Shown: positions 43,940 through 60,170 of the stretch, piece after piece
Layout: each line of letters begins with the position of its first letter
Numbering within the stretch: the first letter of the stretch is position 1
NCBI GenBank assembly: GCA_030054195.1
Contig: JASGCJ010000002.1
Span: 25,777-89,776 of the forward strand
DNA from: Minisyncoccota bacterium
GTDB taxonomy: Bacteria; Verrucomicrobiota; Verrucomicrobiia; Methylacidiphilales; Verrucolacustridaceae
Reading direction: 5' to 3'
DNA length: 64,000 nucleotides
Notes under the pieces: model-generated
What the model saw: only the letters and a program-made list of their open reading frames with translations
The model's database searches: none
Told to the model about the DNA's origin: nothing
Program-made: the position numbers and the translations under genes

Positions 43940-44473
43940 CTAACCCTCCAGACAACTCCAAAACATCCCACAAGGCCCCGTACAAAGCATGGGCATCTTG
44001 GCATCTCTATCTGCAGGCTTTTCCCCTGCCCACAGGACAGCCTTGAGACATCGTTTCTTGCAATTTTCCTCGATCACTCTTCGAGGCATATCCCCTGCTT
44101 GCGATACCTTGCTCCGAACCCGCTCGGTCTGCTTCGTCAATACATCATCCCATATTTGAAATTTCAGTTTTCCATGTTTCCATGCCTCAGCGTTTCCCCA
44201 CAGGCCAGGATAAATAACCTCCATCCCCTCGCGAAACTCCGTCACGCTGTTGGCGTCATACTGCCAACCCGAAACTAGATTTCCTTCACTTCGAAGAGGT
44301 CGATACTTTCCTCGCTCATCCCAACGCACCACCTCCTCCAATTCGTCCAGGGTCGCTACGCTGCGTAACTGTCCAACCGCGTCTTGATCCTGAATATGCC
44401 TGACCACCCAACCCTTCTCATTCTTAATCCAGCACACTTGCCCCATTTCGCCTGCTTCATACATCGTTTCCAT
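43940..44473 (-). CDS. DR2241-like putative 4Fe-4S protein
   Basis: 177 residues. The N-terminal ~125 residues have no motif I know. The C-terminus carries five cysteines in two clusters, CKKRC at ~138 and CTGPCGMFWSC near the end, separated by AVLWAGEKPADR. It lies 6 bases after a CbiX-type gene. In Deinococcus DR2241 a sirohydrochlorin-chelatase-like domain is fused with a domain that binds a 4Fe-4S cluster; here the two seem to be separate genes. The identification rests on the pairing and the Cys pattern. Confidence 0.6.
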   Translation of the reverse strand: METMYEAGEMGQVCWIKNEKGWVVRHIQDQDAVGQLRSVATLDELEEVVRWDERGKYRPLRSEGNLVSGWQYDANSVTEFREGMEVIYPGLWGNAEAWKHGKLKFQIWDDVLTKQTERVRSKVSQAGDMPRRVIEENCKKRCLKAVLWAGEKPADRDAKMPMLCTGPCGMFWSCLEG

Positions 44474-44479
44474 GACGAT

Positions 44480-45226
44480 TTACTTTGAAGCCTTGGCTAC
44501 TGCCAATTCGATAATCATTTCTTCGACTTCTTCCGGCCTTCCCAAGGGCTCGCCATAACCCACCTCACCCTTTTCAGATTCATACCAACCTTCCCCCGCG
44601 CCCGATATCCCCAAAAGTTCTGGTACATCCTCCGAACCATGCAATCCCCCAGCCAAAAAGTGAGGCAATACCACCACTGGCCCTTCCTGAATGAGAACTC
44701 TCCAGTCTGCAATCTTTGGGTCCTCCTCCAGAAATACAGCCCGAGCTGTCCGATAACCGTCTTTCGCCAATTGCTCGGCTAAATCTACTGCCGCCACTCG
44801 TGAACCTGCATGCAGTGGGGTTCCATGACTCGCCACCAGAAGGCTCACCTGATTGGGTTTCCAGCTCTTTGCCGCCAACAAGCGTTCTGCCCGCTTTTGA
44901 AAATGACTAAGTATCTCTGACCTCATTCCGATCGGTGCCGTCACTCGGCACTCCACATCCAATGTGTCCACAAATTCCCTCTGCAGAATCTTCGTGGTAA
45001 AATACCCATTCGCCAGAAACCACGGAACCACCACTACCTTTTTCGCTCCCAACCCTTGGATTGCATCCGCATAGGAGGGTTGCTCCTTCCAAAAAGCCGA
45101 CCGTACCTCGCCAAAAATCCCCCTCTCCCTGATTCGGTGCGCCGTCTCCCTCGTGAACCGACTGGACTCTGCATTTTTGGTGGAGCCGTGGCCTGCTAAA
45201 ATGAGTGCTACATCCTTAAACTGCAT
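44480..45226 (-). CDS. CbiX/sirohydrochlorin chelatase-like protein
   Basis: 248 residues with two chelatase half-domains. The first opens ALILAGHGSTKN (metal-binding His) and continues VVVVPWFLANGYFTTKIL; the second has LLVASHGTPLHAGSR and VVVLPHFLAGGLHGSEDV. Family members insert Co, Ni or Fe into sirohydrochlorin. No other cobalamin or haem genes are near, so the pathway is unclear. A TAAGAT box lies 6 bases before the ATG. Confidence 0.85.
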   Translation of the reverse strand: MQFKDVALILAGHGSTKNAESSRFTRETAHRIRERGIFGEVRSAFWKEQPSYADAIQGLGAKKVVVVPWFLANGYFTTKILQREFVDTLDVECRVTAPIGMRSEILSHFQKRAERLLAAKSWKPNQVSLLVASHGTPLHAGSRVAAVDLAEQLAKDGYRTARAVFLEEDPKIADWRVLIQEGPVVVLPHFLAGGLHGSEDVPELLGISGAGEGWYESEKGEVGYGEPLGRPEEVEEMIIELAVAKASK

Positions 45227-45286: not shown

Positions 45287-46459
45287 TTAGCGGTTTGCTT
45301 TGACCGGCACCCCTTGAGAGGCTGGCCCGCCAGAGGGGTTGGGGAAAAGCGGTGCGGGTTCGACAATCCGCGAACTTTCAGGGCGTGCCGAAACAGTAAT
45401 CGTAAATACCTGCTCTTTTCCGTCTCGCTTGACCCGAACTGGAACTTTCCCCCCTACCTCCGAAAAAAACGCCGCATCCAAAATATCGGAGGGCTCATGC
45501 ACAGGTCGTCCTCCAATTGAAATCACCTCATCCCCCATCTTCAACCCACTCTTTTCAGCAGGAGTACCCTTATAAAGCCGATCCACAAAAACTGGCGCAC
45601 CACGCTCAGGCCGGCTTCGATCAGGCATCACCCCCACTCCCATCCATCCGTGACGTGGCTCCCCAAACTTCTGAATGTCTGCCGCAACTTTTGAAGCCGC
45701 CTCAATCGGAAGAGCATAACACGCCTTACCCTCATCGATTTCTAACATAAGGACACCTACCACTTTTCCTTGGCTGTCCAAAAGCGGCCCACCAATCTGT
45801 CCTGGTTTAATCGGCAGATTCGCACGCAGGTGAGTCGTAGCAAAAAACCGCGTCAAATACTTCACATCAAACCCGGCAACAAATCCGAATGTCGGTTCCG
45901 CTTTAAGATCATAGGGAAACGCCACACTCACCACGGCCGATGCAGGTCGCAACCTCATCCCCTCGCCGAAAGCCAAATGGGGAGTCTGAGTCGCTGGAAT
46001 TTTGAGCACAGCCACTCCACTACGCGGATCCCGCCCTAAAATTTTTGCGGTAAAGGTTCTTCCGTTCACATCCACCGATACGGAGTCAGCCTGACCGACC
46101 ACCGCATACGCCGTCAGAATTGTGCCCTGCCCATCAATAAAAAATCCTGTACCTGCCAACTGCTCTGCCCCATCCGTGGCCCGCAAACGCACAACAGTAG
46201 GCACCGCCTGCTCGTACACCCCACTCACCTCGGCGGCGATCTGGTCAAAAACGCCACTCCCTTGCGACATTGGAGCCTTGGGTGCTGAGGGCTCGAAAGA
46301 AGCCGACGCAGGAGGAACTAAATCTTGGGTTACTGAAACGGAGACAGGACCCGAGTGATGAGCCAAATAGTAGGCTCGCCCACCGATCAACCCCGTAAAA
46401 GCAACGAGGAGGACAAGGAGGGATAGAAAAACGTATTTAAAACGCGAGACGGGAATCAT
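45287..46459 (-). CDS. HtrA-like membrane-anchored S1C pseudoprotease with PDZ domain
   Basis: 390 residues: an N-terminal anchor (VFLSLLVLLVAFTGLIGG), a low-complexity linker, a trypsin-like domain (~80-250) and one PDZ domain (~265-365; GTPAEKSGLKMGDEVISIGG). The fold markers are clear, but all three catalytic positions are changed: LTNAHVV is LTAYAVV (His to Ala119), TDLA is SGVA (Asp to Gly148), GNSGGPL is GQIGGPL (Ser to Ile222). It therefore cannot act as a serine protease and is probably a binding or sensing protein. ATG 46459 (alternative 46480) overlaps the end of the anti-sigma-like gene. Confidence 0.88.
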   Translation of the reverse strand: MIPVSRFKYVFLSLLVLLVAFTGLIGGRAYYLAHHSGPVSVSVTQDLVPPASASFEPSAPKAPMSQGSGVFDQIAAEVSGVYEQAVPTVVRLRATDGAEQLAGTGFFIDGQGTILTAYAVVGQADSVSVDVNGRTFTAKILGRDPRSGVAVLKIPATQTPHLAFGEGMRLRPASAVVSVAFPYDLKAEPTFGFVAGFDVKYLTRFFATTHLRANLPIKPGQIGGPLLDSQGKVVGVLMLEIDEGKACYALPIEAASKVAADIQKFGEPRHGWMGVGVMPDRSRPERGAPVFVDRLYKGTPAEKSGLKMGDEVISIGGRPVHEPSDILDAAFFSEVGGKVPVRVKRDGKEQVFTITVSARPESSRIVEPAPLFPNPSGGPASQGVPVKANR

Positions 46460-46901
46460 AAGCCACCGCACCGTGCCCATTTACATAGAGGGGCCGAAGC
46501 TGAGTCCCTTCCCCGCCAGCCGCTGTTTCAATCAGCTCAGGCTGAATTTGCAGAGAATCGTCTACCGAATTCGCCGCTACAATAATTCCCTTGGCATGCG
46601 CAACTTTTCCGTCTGCCAGAGGCGTAATTCCTGGCGCCACAGGTCCTAGGAAAAATGCAACTCCAGCAATCAAACATGCAACCGACCCTGCAACCGTGGC
46701 CAGACGAGGTACGCCCGCGACCCAAGGCTCAAACAGGACTTCCAATACTTTCGAGTACCAAGGCTCTTCCCGTAAAATTTCCTGCCTCTGATACTGGTGG
46801 AAAGCATCCACAAATTTCTCGAAGTAGGCCTCCCCAGGGGTCTCCAATCGCTTCAACTGAAGGAGCTTTTGTAACTCTGAAAAATCTTCTTTTTGGTTCA
46901 T
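46437..46901 (-). CDS. Anti-sigma-factor-like single-pass membrane protein
   Basis: 154 residues. A charged N-terminal cytoplasmic part (DFSELQKLLQLKRLETPGEAYFEKFVDAFHQYQ), one helix at ~68-88 (LATVAGSVACLIAGVAFFLG) and a ~65-residue periplasmic tail. Position directly after an ECF sigma gene, and this topology, fit an anti-sigma factor. I see no zinc (ZAS) HxxxCxxC motif, so it would be a non-zinc type. The periplasmic tail may contact the pseudoprotease encoded next. Confidence 0.7.
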   Translation of the reverse strand: MNQKEDFSELQKLLQLKRLETPGEAYFEKFVDAFHQYQRQEILREEPWYSKVLEVLFEPWVAGVPRLATVAGSVACLIAGVAFFLGPVAPGITPLADGKVAHAKGIIVAANSVDDSLQIQPELIETAAGGEGTQLRPLYVNGHGAVAYDSRLAF

Positions 46902-46921: not shown

Positions 46922-47545
46922 TTACCTTCGCAGGTAGATGCCAAGCGATTTCTGAAGCTGTTTGTGAGCATAATGGAGCCTCGAACGGACCGTACCCTCG
47001 GTCGTCCCCATAATCTTCCCAATCTCAGCATGTGCAAGTCCTTGTATATCATATAAAGTTACCACTGTTCTATGTTCTTTCGACAGCCCAAGCATGGATT
47101 CGTTCAATTTATTTTGCAACTCATTGAGCATAGATGACTTAGATGGGTTGTTTCTCTGGATTGGATCAGGCATATCGTACTTTGGGAGTCCATCCTCATC
47201 GATCTCATTCAAACTCATCGCCCCCTGCCTCCTTTTTCTCTTTTCCAAGAAGTTAAAAGTCCGGTTAATCGCGATCCTGTAGATCCAAGTGTAAAACGAC
47301 GACTGCCCCCGAAACGTCGGCAAACTCCGGTACGCCTTATCAAAAACCTCCATCAACATGTCGTTGGTGTCTTCGTGGTTCGATGTCAAATGGTAGATCA
47401 CTCCATACAAACGGGACTGGAATCGCCGAATCAACTCATCGTAAGAAGCCAAATTTCCCTTCACGGTCTCCGCAACCAACTCCTCATCAGTCGGTCCGTT
47501 CTCTAAATCGATTTCCTTGGTTAAATCCACCGACATCGGTTTCAT
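46922..47545 (-). CDS. ECF RNA polymerase sigma factor (RpoE-like)
   Basis: 207 residues. Sigma region 2 (ASYDELIRRFQSRLYGVIYHLTSNHEDTNDMLMEVFDKAY, shown in part: DTNDMLMEVFDKAYRSL; FRGQSSFYTWIYRIAIN) and region 4 (GLSKEHRTVVTLYDIQGLAHAEIG, and EIGKIMGTTEGTVRSRLHYA) are complete. It is likely to control an envelope regulon together with the anti-sigma-like protein next to it. ATG 47545 has a GGGGTGG stretch about 8 bases upstream; an ATG at 47563 and one at 47536 are also possible. Confidence 0.9.
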   Translation of the reverse strand: MKPMSVDLTKEIDLENGPTDEELVAETVKGNLASYDELIRRFQSRLYGVIYHLTSNHEDTNDMLMEVFDKAYRSLPTFRGQSSFYTWIYRIAINRTFNFLEKRKRRQGAMSLNEIDEDGLPKYDMPDPIQRNNPSKSSMLNELQNKLNESMLGLSKEHRTVVTLYDIQGLAHAEIGKIMGTTEGTVRSRLHYAHKQLQKSLGIYLRR

Positions 47546-47607
47546 CCTATCGCCCACCCCCATAGATCGAAAAGGTCAATCCACCCCGACCTCCACCCAA
47601 TTTCGTC

Positions 47608-48713: not shown

Positions 48714-49748
48714 ATGTATCCGGCCCTATCTGCACTCATCCTGGCCCTCCTCCTGACCTCCTGTTCCCAGCCCGACGGTCGCATTGCCCAAAGCGCCCAC
48801 CAACTCTTGGAACAGGGAAAACTCCAACAGGCCCAAGAATCCCTCCAAGACGGTTTCCGCCAATTCCCTCAAAGCATCGCCCTTCGCCAAGAAAGACTTC
48901 ACCTCAACCTGCTCGCAGGCCAACCAGAGCTAGCGGCAGCCGAGGCCCAGCAAATGCTACAAACCCAACCTTCAGCCCAACCCTACCGCCTCCCCCTTCG
49001 CGATCCCTCCCCAGCGATTCGCTCCCTCGCCGTCCGCGCGTTCGCACTCGCCCCACCCCAACACCCCTCTTCCCTCTCCGTTCTTCGCACCGCACTCCGT
49101 GACCCTGATCCGACCGTTCGCCGCGAATCCATCGAAGCCACCCGCATTCTTACCACCCCCCAAGCCACCCCAATTCTCCGTCAAGCCACCCAAGATCCCG
49201 ATTGGCTCACCCGCGCATCCGCTGCCCGACTCCTCGGAAACCGCGCCGACCCCACCGCGATCCCGACTCTCTTCTCCATGCTGCAAGACAAAGACTCCTA
49301 TGTTCGCCGCTTCGCCCGACGATCTCTTTTGGAACTCTCCATTGTGGCAAAACCCGATGCCTACCTCCCTGCGCTTCAATCCAAAGATCGCACCACACAA
49401 GTCGTCGCCGCACTTGCCCTCGCCCGTCTCAATGACGGTCGCGGTCTGGATATTCTTCTGGCTGAAATGGCCAATCCTCTTGGCGTCGAACGAATTGAAG
49501 GAGTCAAATCCGCAGTCCGCATCCAAGACCCCAGAGTCCTACCCGCTGTCCGTGCCGCAACTTCCGATCAAGATTCACAGGTTCGCATGGTCGCTCTCAT
49601 CGCCCTCGGTCTTTTGCAAGACAAAGAGTCAGCGCCCCTCATGAAAAAAATTCAGAGCGATACATCCGCACCTCAAGAGGTTCGCCTCGCTGCAGGCAAA
49701 GCCCTCGAACTTCTCTCACAAGCCCCAACCCAACCTAACCGCACCTAA
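48714..49748 (+). CDS. HEAT-repeat lipoprotein
   Basis: 344 residues. A lipoprotein signal MYPALSALILALLLTSC puts the lipidated cysteine at 17. Residues ~28-90 look like a TPR pair (LLEQGKLQQAQESLQDGFRQFP). From ~95 to the end there are about seven HEAT/PBS-type repeats with the VRxxAxxALxxL pattern, such as PTVRRESIEAT, YVRRFARRSLLEL and VRMVALIALGLL. Such proteins are scaffolds; the partner is unknown. Mono-cistronic, divergent from the polyprenyl synthase gene; a CATAAT box lies 8 bases before the ATG. Confidence 0.85.
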   Translation: MYPALSALILALLLTSCSQPDGRIAQSAHQLLEQGKLQQAQESLQDGFRQFPQSIALRQERLHLNLLAGQPELAAAEAQQMLQTQPSAQPYRLPLRDPSPAIRSLAVRAFALAPPQHPSSLSVLRTALRDPDPTVRRESIEATRILTTPQATPILRQATQDPDWLTRASAARLLGNRADPTAIPTLFSMLQDKDSYVRRFARRSLLELSIVAKPDAYLPALQSKDRTTQVVAALALARLNDGRGLDILLAEMANPLGVERIEGVKSAVRIQDPRVLPAVRAATSDQDSQVRMVALIALGLLQDKESAPLMKKIQSDTSAPQEVRLAAGKALELLSQAPTQPNRT

Positions 49749-57267: not shown

Positions 57268-57297
57268 AGTATAGTTAGAACTGGTACCCGCCGTCAA
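57268..57297 (-). promoter_or_regulatory. Sigma70-like promoter of skp-lpxD
   Basis: Minus strand: -35 TTGACG (57297-57292), 18-base spacer, -10 TATACT (57273-57268), 8 bases before ATG 57259. It overlaps the bamA 3' end, so skp and lpxD can be expressed apart from bamA, again from an almost leaderless start. Confidence 0.6.
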
Positions 57298-60088
57298 AGT
57301 ACAATTTGAAGGCCCCCAATCCCCCGCCATTGTTTGGATCCCCTGTCATCACAGGGAAACCGACATCAAATTTCATCGGCCCAATACCGATGTCCATCCG
57401 GATTCCCACACCCGCTCCGATTTGGAATCCTCCGTTGATCGCGTTGTAGTCGGTCTGAACTCCATTCACCATCATGCTCTGAGTGTTGTTGTATGTCTTA
57501 GGCTGAAAATCAAAAACGTTCTCGTTCACAAATCCACCGTCACAGAAAACCGCCCACCGGACCCGATTTTCCAGAATCGGGAAAGGAGCGGAAACCTCTA
57601 CTTGATACACTCCTTGCGTACCACCACCCACAGGTTGGGCGTTCTGCTTTGGACCCACCGATCCTCCGTTCACCGTACTACCCAACGACGGATCGAAACC
57701 TCGGATCGATCCCGATCCACCCGCAAACAGCTGATCCCATACTGGCACGTAATCCGTGGTGCTGTAACTGTCGACTAAACCGAGCAAGGCCCGAGCAGAT
57801 AGAATCACATCTTTCTCCCTCCACAAGGTGTGATACGTCTTAAACTCGGCTTTAATCTTCCATATATTTTCACTTCCAAGAAGCGGTCCGCCCGCACCCT
57901 CAGCACCAAACTCAAAATACTGTCCCGAATGAGCCAACATATAACTGTCCCGACCGTCATAGGTTACGGAGCCCCGCAAAGACGACTTGAACGTGTCTCC
58001 CGTGGATGCCTGAAAATAAGGCGGCGCATCCGACTGAAGATCAGAAATGTCATAGTATTCTGGCCGATAAGTGACCCCCGTAGACCAACGATTCAGCGGA
58101 TAATCATCCCCCAGTCTTCGACTCAATCCAGTAAACGCCCCGTAATTCTTCTGATTATAGAATTCACTCAAATACGATGCACCATTGTAGTACCCACCCG
58201 CATCCAACCGAATCGGCTTATCCAAAAACCACGGTTCGGTGAATGATAGGTTGATGTTTTGGGACCGGAAACCAATCGATGCCTGGAACCGGACCTTCTG
58301 CCCCGCACCCCGCGGCGGGAAACTCTGAAAGATTCTTTGTAGATCAAAATTCTTCTCTCCCACCGTGATATTTCCCGTCAACAACTCGACCGAGCTGAAT
58401 CCCGCCCCGAAACTCACCTCACCCGTCCCCTTCTCCTCAACCTTCACGATCAGTTTTTGCCGATTCGGCACATCCGTCTCCTCCGCATACGTCTCCACTT
58501 TTGAAAAATAGTTCAAACCCTCCAATCTCTTTTTACTGGCCTTCTCTCGAACAGTGTCAAATACCTCCCCGGGTGCCAGGTCGATTTCTCGGCGAATGAC
58601 CTTGTCCCGTGTCGTGGTATTTCCCTGAATCTCAATCTTATCGACGTAAAATTTCTCCCCCTCCTTCAGGTTGAAACTCACGTCGATTCGCCCGTTCTCC
58701 ACATTGGGGGTCATCCGATACTCGACTCGCGCCTCACGAAACCCTCGACGTCCGTACTTGTCTTGCAAAGTTTCGATCGAGGCCTGAAGGGAATTGATCG
58801 AGTAAATTTCCCCCTCCTGCAAACCATTCGCTTTGATCATCTTTAACTCAATTTGGTCAAAGATCTCCACCTGCTTCGCCTTCGTCTGCAGTTCGTTCAA
58901 CAAATCATCCGCCGAGAAAAATGCGTTCCCTTCGACCGACAACACTCCCACTCGGTACTGCCGCCCCTCCTCAATTCGGTACGTTAAAATCAGATCCTCC
59001 GCAGGAATGTCATCGGGATCGAAATCCTCCCCTCTCGGAGCATCCGAATCTTTTTTGGCCTCCTCATTTTTAGCTGTACGGGGCATGTCCACCGAGGCGG
59101 ACACACCAATATCGATATACCCCTGATTGAGGTAATAATTTTTAATTCGTGCCACATCGTCCTTGAGCGCCAGCTCTTCGAATCGGTCCGATTTGCTGAA
59201 AAGCTGCCACCACTCCTTCGGCTTGAGCTTGACCACTTTTTCCAGCTCTTTTGCAGTTGCAGCTTGGTTTCCGATAAATCGAATCTTGCTGATAAATCCA
59301 CGAATTCCCTCGTCGATTTCAAAGACTACCTTCGCCTCCCCCCCCTTTACCGCCTCCTGCTTCGCGATAATTTTCACATCTTTGTATCCCTTGTCCCGGT
59401 AAAAATCCTCCATCGCAAACGCATCCCTTTGCAATCGCTCTTCGCTCAAGGTGTCTCCTGCCTTCGTCACAGTCTCTTTTGGTGTAAACGCATTCGCCAA
59501 TGCTGCTGCCCCTTTCGCATCACTCGCCGTCAAAGCCTTGAGCTTGAGATCCAGCAGATCTTCTTTGTCTACTGAGAGCTCATCATCCAATCCCCCATCC
59601 GCCCGCTTTCTTTTCACCACCACCTCAGCAACCCGAACTTTCGGATCCACCAAGACAGTCAATCTCACCCCACGCTCCCCATCATCCGCCCGCATCTCGG
59701 AAGTCACAATCTGCACGTTTTCATAATCTCCCGTTTGATAAAGGGTCTCAATGTCACCATCCACCACCTGCTGAGAATACACTCCGCCCTTATTGCTACG
59801 CATATTCTGGCGTATTTTGTCCTCGTTGATCGTCACATCCGGTCTCTTCGATGAATACTCCACTTCCAAAATTTTGATTTGGCCGCTAGCCGCTTTTTCC
59901 GATGAGGAAGGTGAGGGCACAAAGGTTTTTGCACGGGTCTGGGAAGGTTGAACCTCAGGACTCTTCTCACTCTCCTGTGCGCCCAATTCACTTCCCAAAA
60001 AGCACAGAACTAAAATAGACAAAACCCATCCCCGAACCCCAAAAGAGGCCCATTTTGACACACCCGTTGCTACACCCGATTTTTTCAC
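57275..60088 (-). CDS. bamA: Outer membrane protein assembly factor BamA
   Basis: 937 residues. Signal peptide to ~40 (VLSILVLCFLGSELGAQ), five POTRA-like domains from ~72 to ~520 (GFISKIRFIGNQAATAKELEK and KFYVDKIEIQGNTTTRDKVIRREI among them), and a 16-strand barrel with the L6 signature IRGFDPSLGS. The C-terminal KLYFDGGYQF fits the BAM recognition motif. It is longer than E. coli BamA (~810), with an extended POTRA region and an acidic insertion near 320 (PRGEDFDPDDIP). GTG start at 60088. Confidence 0.97.
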   Translation of the reverse strand: MKKSGVATGVSKWASFGVRGWVLSILVLCFLGSELGAQESEKSPEVQPSQTRAKTFVPSPSSSEKAASGQIKILEVEYSSKRPDVTINEDKIRQNMRSNKGGVYSQQVVDGDIETLYQTGDYENVQIVTSEMRADDGERGVRLTVLVDPKVRVAEVVVKRKRADGGLDDELSVDKEDLLDLKLKALTASDAKGAAALANAFTPKETVTKAGDTLSEERLQRDAFAMEDFYRDKGYKDVKIIAKQEAVKGGEAKVVFEIDEGIRGFISKIRFIGNQAATAKELEKVVKLKPKEWWQLFSKSDRFEELALKDDVARIKNYYLNQGYIDIGVSASVDMPRTAKNEEAKKDSDAPRGEDFDPDDIPAEDLILTYRIEEGRQYRVGVLSVEGNAFFSADDLLNELQTKAKQVEIFDQIELKMIKANGLQEGEIYSINSLQASIETLQDKYGRRGFREARVEYRMTPNVENGRIDVSFNLKEGEKFYVDKIEIQGNTTTRDKVIRREIDLAPGEVFDTVREKASKKRLEGLNYFSKVETYAEETDVPNRQKLIVKVEEKGTGEVSFGAGFSSVELLTGNITVGEKNFDLQRIFQSFPPRGAGQKVRFQASIGFRSQNINLSFTEPWFLDKPIRLDAGGYYNGASYLSEFYNQKNYGAFTGLSRRLGDDYPLNRWSTGVTYRPEYYDISDLQSDAPPYFQASTGDTFKSSLRGSVTYDGRDSYMLAHSGQYFEFGAEGAGGPLLGSENIWKIKAEFKTYHTLWREKDVILSARALLGLVDSYSTTDYVPVWDQLFAGGSGSIRGFDPSLGSTVNGGSVGPKQNAQPVGGGTQGVYQVEVSAPFPILENRVRWAVFCDGGFVNENVFDFQPKTYNNTQSMMVNGVQTDYNAINGGFQIGAGVGIRMDIGIGPMKFDVGFPVMTGDPNNGGGLGAFKLYFDGGYQF

Positions 60089-60170
60089 GGTAAACTACGT
60101 AAATAGCTATCAATAAGCTCTTGTCGATACCCAGTTATGAAACTTCTTAACTATTGAAGCTTAATAACTT

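Follow-up and report, generated by a model that had tools for sequence, protein, structure and literature searches.

A catalytically dead HtrA-fold protein encoded with an ECF sigma factor and a putative anti-sigma factor in Verrucomicrobia: a candidate co-anti-sigma factor

What could be the role of an HtrA-like protein that has apparently lost its whole catalytic triad and is encoded directly behind an extracytoplasmic function (ECF) sigma factor and an anti-sigma-like gene? This question is raised by a locus in the 64,000-nucleotide stretch of verrucomicrobial DNA analysed here (the window). An earlier note had proposed that the protein, here called pseudo-HtrA, is maintained by selection and that it binds or shields the anti-sigma protein encoded in the same operon. 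The features of the locus are listed in Table 1.

Table 1. Features of the sigma factor, anti-sigma factor and pseudo-HtrA operon, in window coordinates
Feature	Position	Strand	Basis
ECF (RpoE-like) sigma factor, first gene of the operon	46922..47563	-	Pfam and NCBIfam
Predicted membrane anti-sigma factor, 154 aa	46437..46901	-	zf-HC2 in orthologs, synteny with sigma gene
Anti-sigma factor transmembrane segment LATVAGSVACLIAGVAFFL	46647..46703	-	Hydropathy
Anti-sigma factor tail YDSRLAF-COOH, to which the PDZ domain of pseudo-HtrA is proposed to bind	46440..46460	-	Co-occurrence of tail and neighbour
Pseudo-HtrA, 390 aa from the preferred start	45287..46459	-	Pfam, profile alignment
Pseudo-HtrA N-terminal membrane anchor YVFLSLLVLLVAFTGLIGG	46379..46435	-	Hydropathy
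Trypsin-like (pseudo-protease) domain	45752..46153	-	Pfam Trypsin_2 3.6e-21, residues 110-243
Catalytic His site, now Ala126 (397-aa numbering)	46103..46105	-	
Catalytic Asp site, now Gly155 (397-aa numbering)	46016..46018	-	
Family-specific motif TTH[IL]R (T215, H217, R219)	45824..45838	-	Alignment of 29 families
Catalytic Ser site, now Ile229 (397-aa numbering)	45794..45796	-	
PDZ carboxylate-binding loop region RHGWMGVGV	45629..45655	-	Family alignment
PDZ domain	45392..45643	-	Pfam PDZ_2 8.9e-12, residues 280-363

The sigma factor matched the Pfam models Sigma70_r2 (1.8e-13) and Sigma70_r4 (3e-11) and, under the cut-off, the NCBIfam model RpoE_Sigma70 (3.5e-38); a similar sigma factor (E <= 1e-38) was found in 256 of 286 genomes of the class. 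A Pfam search with the product of the middle gene returned no match, zf-HC2 included. The zf-HC2 domain (PF13490) was identified in its orthologs at loci L121, L127 and L128 (E 7.9e-9, 2.3e-5), and in some orthologs it lies on the N-terminal side of a region, LLxLKRxExPxxYF, that is common to them. On the basis of these orthologs and of synteny, the middle gene is best assigned as an anti-sigma factor. Its predicted layout comprises a cytoplasmic domain with the sequence LLQLKRLETPGxxYFxxF, a single transmembrane segment and a periplasmic part that ends in the C-terminal tail. Such a gene was detected 3' of the sigma factor gene in 175 loci, and hydropathy revealed the transmembrane segment in 162 of these orthologs. 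An N-terminal hydrophobic segment was likewise present in 106 of the 129 pseudo-HtrA orthologs linked to an anti-sigma gene. With one transmembrane segment in each protein, the tail and the PDZ domain should both face the periplasm in the inferred topology.

The claim that pseudo-HtrA shares an operon with an ECF sigma factor and an anti-sigma factor was confirmed, and the arrangement holds class-wide: wherever contigs extend far enough, almost every member of the genus and the order keeps the gene order, and at class level conservation of the three-gene operon extends to about 30 families. The same order was also found at a locus outside the class (L184); there, the Ser site is occupied by Asn and the anti-sigma factor ends in DYSF. 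One genome of the same genus (G001) contained two near-equal pseudo-HtrA copies on contigs C15 and C24, possibly reflecting a strain mixture or a duplication. Around the operon, a HEAT-repeat protein gene adjoins it at 48714-49748 on the plus strand, and a CbiX-type chelatase and a DR2241/4Fe-4S protein are encoded by separate adjoining genes (43940-45226) that match two parts of the longer NCBIfam model PRK02395. A search of viral contigs found no useful relative. With regard to the gene start, the longest pseudo-HtrA reading frame begins at 46480 and gives 397 aa; the start at 46459 first assumed is to be preferred because this Met is nearly invariant among orthologs. In two orthologs an in-frame TAG lies inside the aligned stretch, and their longest open frame starts just 5' of the equivalent Met. 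The preferred ATG sits within the TATGAT of the anti-sigma tail.

The trypsin-like fold and the PDZ domain recognised in the first reading were both matched in Pfam. In NCBIfam the best families were degP_htrA_DO and DegS, all under their curated cut-offs; the DegS equivalog TIGR02038 reached 90.7 bits (cut-off 422.95), and the MamE/MamO models 59.9 and 41 bits (cut-off 800). When an RseB fold was sought in Pfam and NCBIfam, only families of the HtrA, trypsin and PDZ types were obtained. A profile of the order-level relatives matched DegP, DegQ, MucD, DegS and AlgW chains, with E values as low as 7e-60. Aligned with solved DegP, MucD and DegQ chains, it placed lTasavv on LTNNHVV at the His motif, DeRsGvalL on DPRTDVAVLK at the Asp motif and GqiGgPll on GNSGGPLF at the Ser motif. 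Because this alignment fixes the register, the three replacements originally read from the gene (His by Ala, Asp by Gly and Ser by Ile) are correct. Misalignment of the triad was ruled out by the same register together with five active HtrA controls encoded elsewhere, all of which retained the three residues. Pseudo-HtrA is a member of the HtrA fold family and, lacking the defining triad, not an HtrA protease; its sequence predicts that it is catalytically dead. A full-length AF2 model built on the genus-level alignment was unusable (mean pLDDT 44); the PDZ domain alone gave a usable model.

To what extent are these losses shared? Among 115 sigma-adjacent orthologs from 29 families, a count that leaves out family f11, no intact triad could be found in the operon: His was absent from the His site and Asp from the Asp site in all of them (with Gly at the latter in 92), and Ser was kept at the Ser site in 8. 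The idea that homologues have the same three losses is thus borne out in all orthologs for the first two sites, and in most of them for the third. In f11, a much more divergent HtrA-like gene without recognisable catalytic residues was observed 3' of the anti-sigma gene. In pairwise comparison within the genus, the two domains of pseudo-HtrA had low median dN/dS values (pseudo-protease 0.024, PDZ 0.034), whereas the linker reached 0.49, the sigma factor 0.066 and the anti-sigma factor 0.078; all these values are rough because synonymous sites are near saturation. The most constrained part of pseudo-HtrA is the very domain that lost catalysis. These data show strong purifying selection and an ancient, shared loss of catalysis, and uphold the earlier argument that random decay would not leave such a protein. 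Loss of all three catalytic residues is what a decaying gene might show, but values of 0.02-0.03 in both domains and conservation through many families refute the pseudogene reading, and we consider its probability negligible.

The family alignment also revealed a new motif, TTH[IL]R, which precedes the nucleophile loop and is near the pseudo-active site in sequence. T215 was present in 25 of 29 families, H217 in 24 and R219 in 26. In the active controls the R219 column was occupied by Gln (5/5), and His was never found in the H217 column (0/5). We take the R219 column to correspond to Gln191 of DegS, a residue of the activation cluster. The motif is specific to the pseudo-family and could be a second binding site. 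Could the protein instead still cut, either through alternative residues or in a minority of orthologs? The conserved His217 and Arg219, as well as the eight orthologs with Ser at the nucleophile site, might be taken in this sense. We regard it as highly improbable, since the His and Asp sites are lost in every ortholog and Ser in most, and the new motif brings no conserved nucleophile. The search for an alternative Ser/His/Asp set, as called for at the outset, gave only the His217/Arg219 pair, which does not make a triad.

Model and alignment show the PDZ domain to be intact in both fold and carboxylate loop. In the loop, G281 was conserved in all 29 families, W279 in 26 and G278 in 25. The AF2 model of the domain (pLDDT 78.5) matched HtrA PDZ domains, including peptide-bound DegS (3gdv/6ew9) and AlgW (7co5); among the matches, DegS carries peptides of the YQF type and AlgW its decapeptide.

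A possible ligand is found in the same operon. The anti-sigma factor ends in LAF, and HtrA PDZ domains bind free hydrophobic C-termini of this type; the tail resembles both the signature of outer-membrane proteins (OMPs) and a PDZ ligand. Order-level tails mostly read Y(D/E)..(V/L/M/I)(A/D/T)F, and those of other families end in (L/F/I/V)SF, RF, HF or NY. The periplasmic part of the anti-sigma factor varies far more freely than its last residues; when each linked family was represented by a single sequence, variability over the final 30 positions was clearly lowest at the very last one (entropy 0.66 bits), and the third-last residue was hydrophobic in most linked loci. BamA (Omp85) of the same genome, encoded in the window at 57278-60094, has the C-terminus GGYQF.

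Occurrence of the tail was strongly associated with that of pseudo-HtrA. At the 129 loci with an adjacent pseudo-HtrA gene, the last anti-sigma residue was Met in 4 and Phe or Tyr in the other 125. Of the 46 loci with no such gene in the stretch of about 1.5-2.7 kb that follows the sigma factor gene, 11 had Phe or Tyr at this position, and in the rest Arg, Pro, Gln, His and Asn predominated. At family level, a Phe or Tyr end was found in 30/31 linked versus 4/24 unlinked families (Fisher p 4e-10, kinship ignored). On the sigma factor tree we counted six changes in the presence of the HtrA gene and five in the tail, of which three fell on shared branches; our own estimate for independent change, over ~340 branches, is ~0.1. 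Kinship was handled through this tree alone, and the number of independent concordant changes is three. In f11, both genomes of genus g124 had neither pseudo-HtrA nor the tail. In another genus of this family (g17; L168-L171), the tail ends in Met (VLIEM) in place of Phe and a divergent HtrA-like gene follows the anti-sigma gene. The earlier suggestion that the dead protein binds the anti-sigma factor thereby gains independent comparative support, and the pseudo-HtrA PDZ domain probably binds the anti-sigma tail.

Could the tail be kept solely by its overlap with the pseudo-HtrA start codon (TATGA)? Counted back from the end of the anti-sigma stop codon, the ATG is 23 or 26 bases away in most loci, within the Tyr-Asp codons. 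In 29 linked loci from 13 families, however, the tail contains no possible start codon, and a hydrophobic or aromatic end is still kept. Moreover, both TTT and TTC are used for the terminal Phe and the residues in the other frame differ, so the overlap would not force this residue. As the sole cause, the overlap is contradicted by these loci and is extremely improbable; it still adds to the constraint under which the Tyr-Asp pair stands.

The association between tail and neighbour is strong and not absolute, because tails are kept at loci lacking the neighbour in f20, f21 and f32. In f20 (L165-L167, L172, L174 and L175), tails ending in IKF, VKF or LKF occur with no HtrA-like gene 3' of the anti-sigma gene, where mostly a fumarase-like gene is present; the PDZ partner of this anti-sigma factor is possibly encoded elsewhere in the genome. 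A Phe or Tyr end without adjacent pseudo-HtrA was also found at loci in f21, f32, f33 and f37. Thus, the tail may have another partner or may linger after loss of the neighbour. It may even be recognised, as a ligand or degron, by another PDZ protease (RseP, Prc or DegP), with pseudo-HtrA a co-regulated envelope chaperone that makes no contact with the anti-sigma factor. The f20 tails fit such a view, and so does the presence of RseP and other PDZ-bearing HtrA proteins in these genomes. It is nevertheless improbable, considering that the tail is also missing in 35 of 46 loci and 20 of 24 families without pseudo-HtrA, and that three tail changes share branches with changes in pseudo-HtrA.

On the basis of these observations and of analogy with known systems, we propose that the operon is an envelope-stress module in which the single-pass anti-sigma factor would hold the ECF sigma factor and the membrane-anchored dead HtrA would have turned into a co-anti-sigma factor, an RseB-like shield. 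Its periplasmic PDZ domain would dock the anti-sigma factor by its free C-terminal end, Y-[D/E]-x-x-hydrophobic-[A/S]-F, and the docked complex would hide the anti-sigma factor from the real site-1 protease. Under stress, the hydrophobic-x-F C-termini of unfolded OMPs would compete for the PDZ domain; the freed anti-sigma factor would then be cut, first at site 1 and next by RseP, and the sigma factor released. A cleavage pathway is available, since the genome encodes RseP and an intact HtrA (L276, with HVV, D and GNSGGPL; contig C82:5006-5986). Competition by unfolded OMPs would be a natural trigger, because the BamA terminus and the tail are both of the hydrophobic-x-F class; it is a speculation by analogy with DegS and AlgW. 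We consider the co-anti-sigma module as a whole to be reasonably likely. Protection from cleavage with release by OMP C-termini is put forward with some reserve. More tentative still is the full scheme of an inverted DegS, in which the PDZ domain of the dead HtrA would hold an OMP-mimicking anti-sigma tail and unfolded OMPs would displace the anti-sigma factor, switching on the sigma factor throughout the class.

Known systems provide precedents for several of these steps. AlgW and DegS use their PDZ domains to bind misplaced OMPs or MucE by the C-terminus (WVF, YxF) (PMC8545111; PMC8103513). Like pseudo-HtrA, DegS and AlgW have an N-terminal membrane anchor, one trypsin-like domain and one PDZ domain, the latter of the type binding hydrophobic-x-F (PMC8545111), and are tied to an ECF sigma/anti-sigma pathway. 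Pseudo-HtrA differs from them in lacking the catalytic His, Asp and (here) Ser, in being encoded within the sigma factor operon, and in having the anti-sigma factor's own C-terminus as its candidate PDZ ligand. DegP, DegQ and MucD, its best solved-structure relatives by sequence, are active and soluble, usually have two PDZ domains and are encoded outside this operon. RseB and MucB bind RseA and MucA and suppress site-1 cleavage (PMC8545111), which makes a shield the nearest precedent and the shielding suggested earlier plausible by analogy; they are operon-encoded periplasmic partners of an anti-sigma factor that prevent its site-1 cleavage, as proposed here for pseudo-HtrA (PMC8545111; PMC8103513), but their fold is unrelated and they are lipid-binding proteins that sense LPS. 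If our reading is right, pseudo-HtrA, which is built like DegS, would act like RseB.

On the other hand, MamO, a dead HtrA-type protein, is needed for and promotes MamE-dependent proteolysis (PMC4794232), so that an adaptor role is also possible: pseudo-HtrA may bind the tail and present the anti-sigma factor to a real protease, or activate that protease. Both an active HtrA and RseP are encoded in the genome, and the pseudo-protease domain, as the most conserved part, would fit a protein-protein interface. The operon itself contains no active HtrA, though, and sequence cannot tell a shield from an adaptor; we consider the adaptor role rather unlikely and retain the shield as the preferred reading. 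In magnetotactic bacteria, MamO and inactive MamE-like proteins are, like pseudo-HtrA, HtrA-type pseudoproteases with non-catalytic work (PMC4794232). MamO differs in serving magnetite formation, in binding metal and in having no sigma/anti-sigma link, and an independent origin of the two is likely.

Pseudo-HtrAs such as MamO and the recognition of C-termini by PDZ domains in sigma-E pathways are already known. In the open-access literature, we found no description of a class-wide dead HtrA in a sigma/anti-sigma operon with a matching anti-sigma tail, and no pseudoprotease or PDZ protein linked to Verrucomicrobial anti-sigma factors, which is weak evidence of absence. As far as could be told, envelope-stress sensing in Verrucomicrobia has not been described either. 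The co-occurrence of operon and tail suggests a new way of restraining a stress response, in a widespread, single-operon system where a protease scaffold has apparently been turned into a binding partner and a short peptide is the predicted contact. If true, the control logic of this ECF sigma factor would be new, namely competition for a PDZ pocket and not activation of a protease; pseudo-HtrA would also be one of few pseudoproteases whose partner can be named on sequence grounds. In an unrelated phylum, a trypsin-like peptidase gene was observed lying divergently beside a sigma/anti-sigma pair on a plasmid of Thermomicrobium roseum (L287; NC_011961.1).
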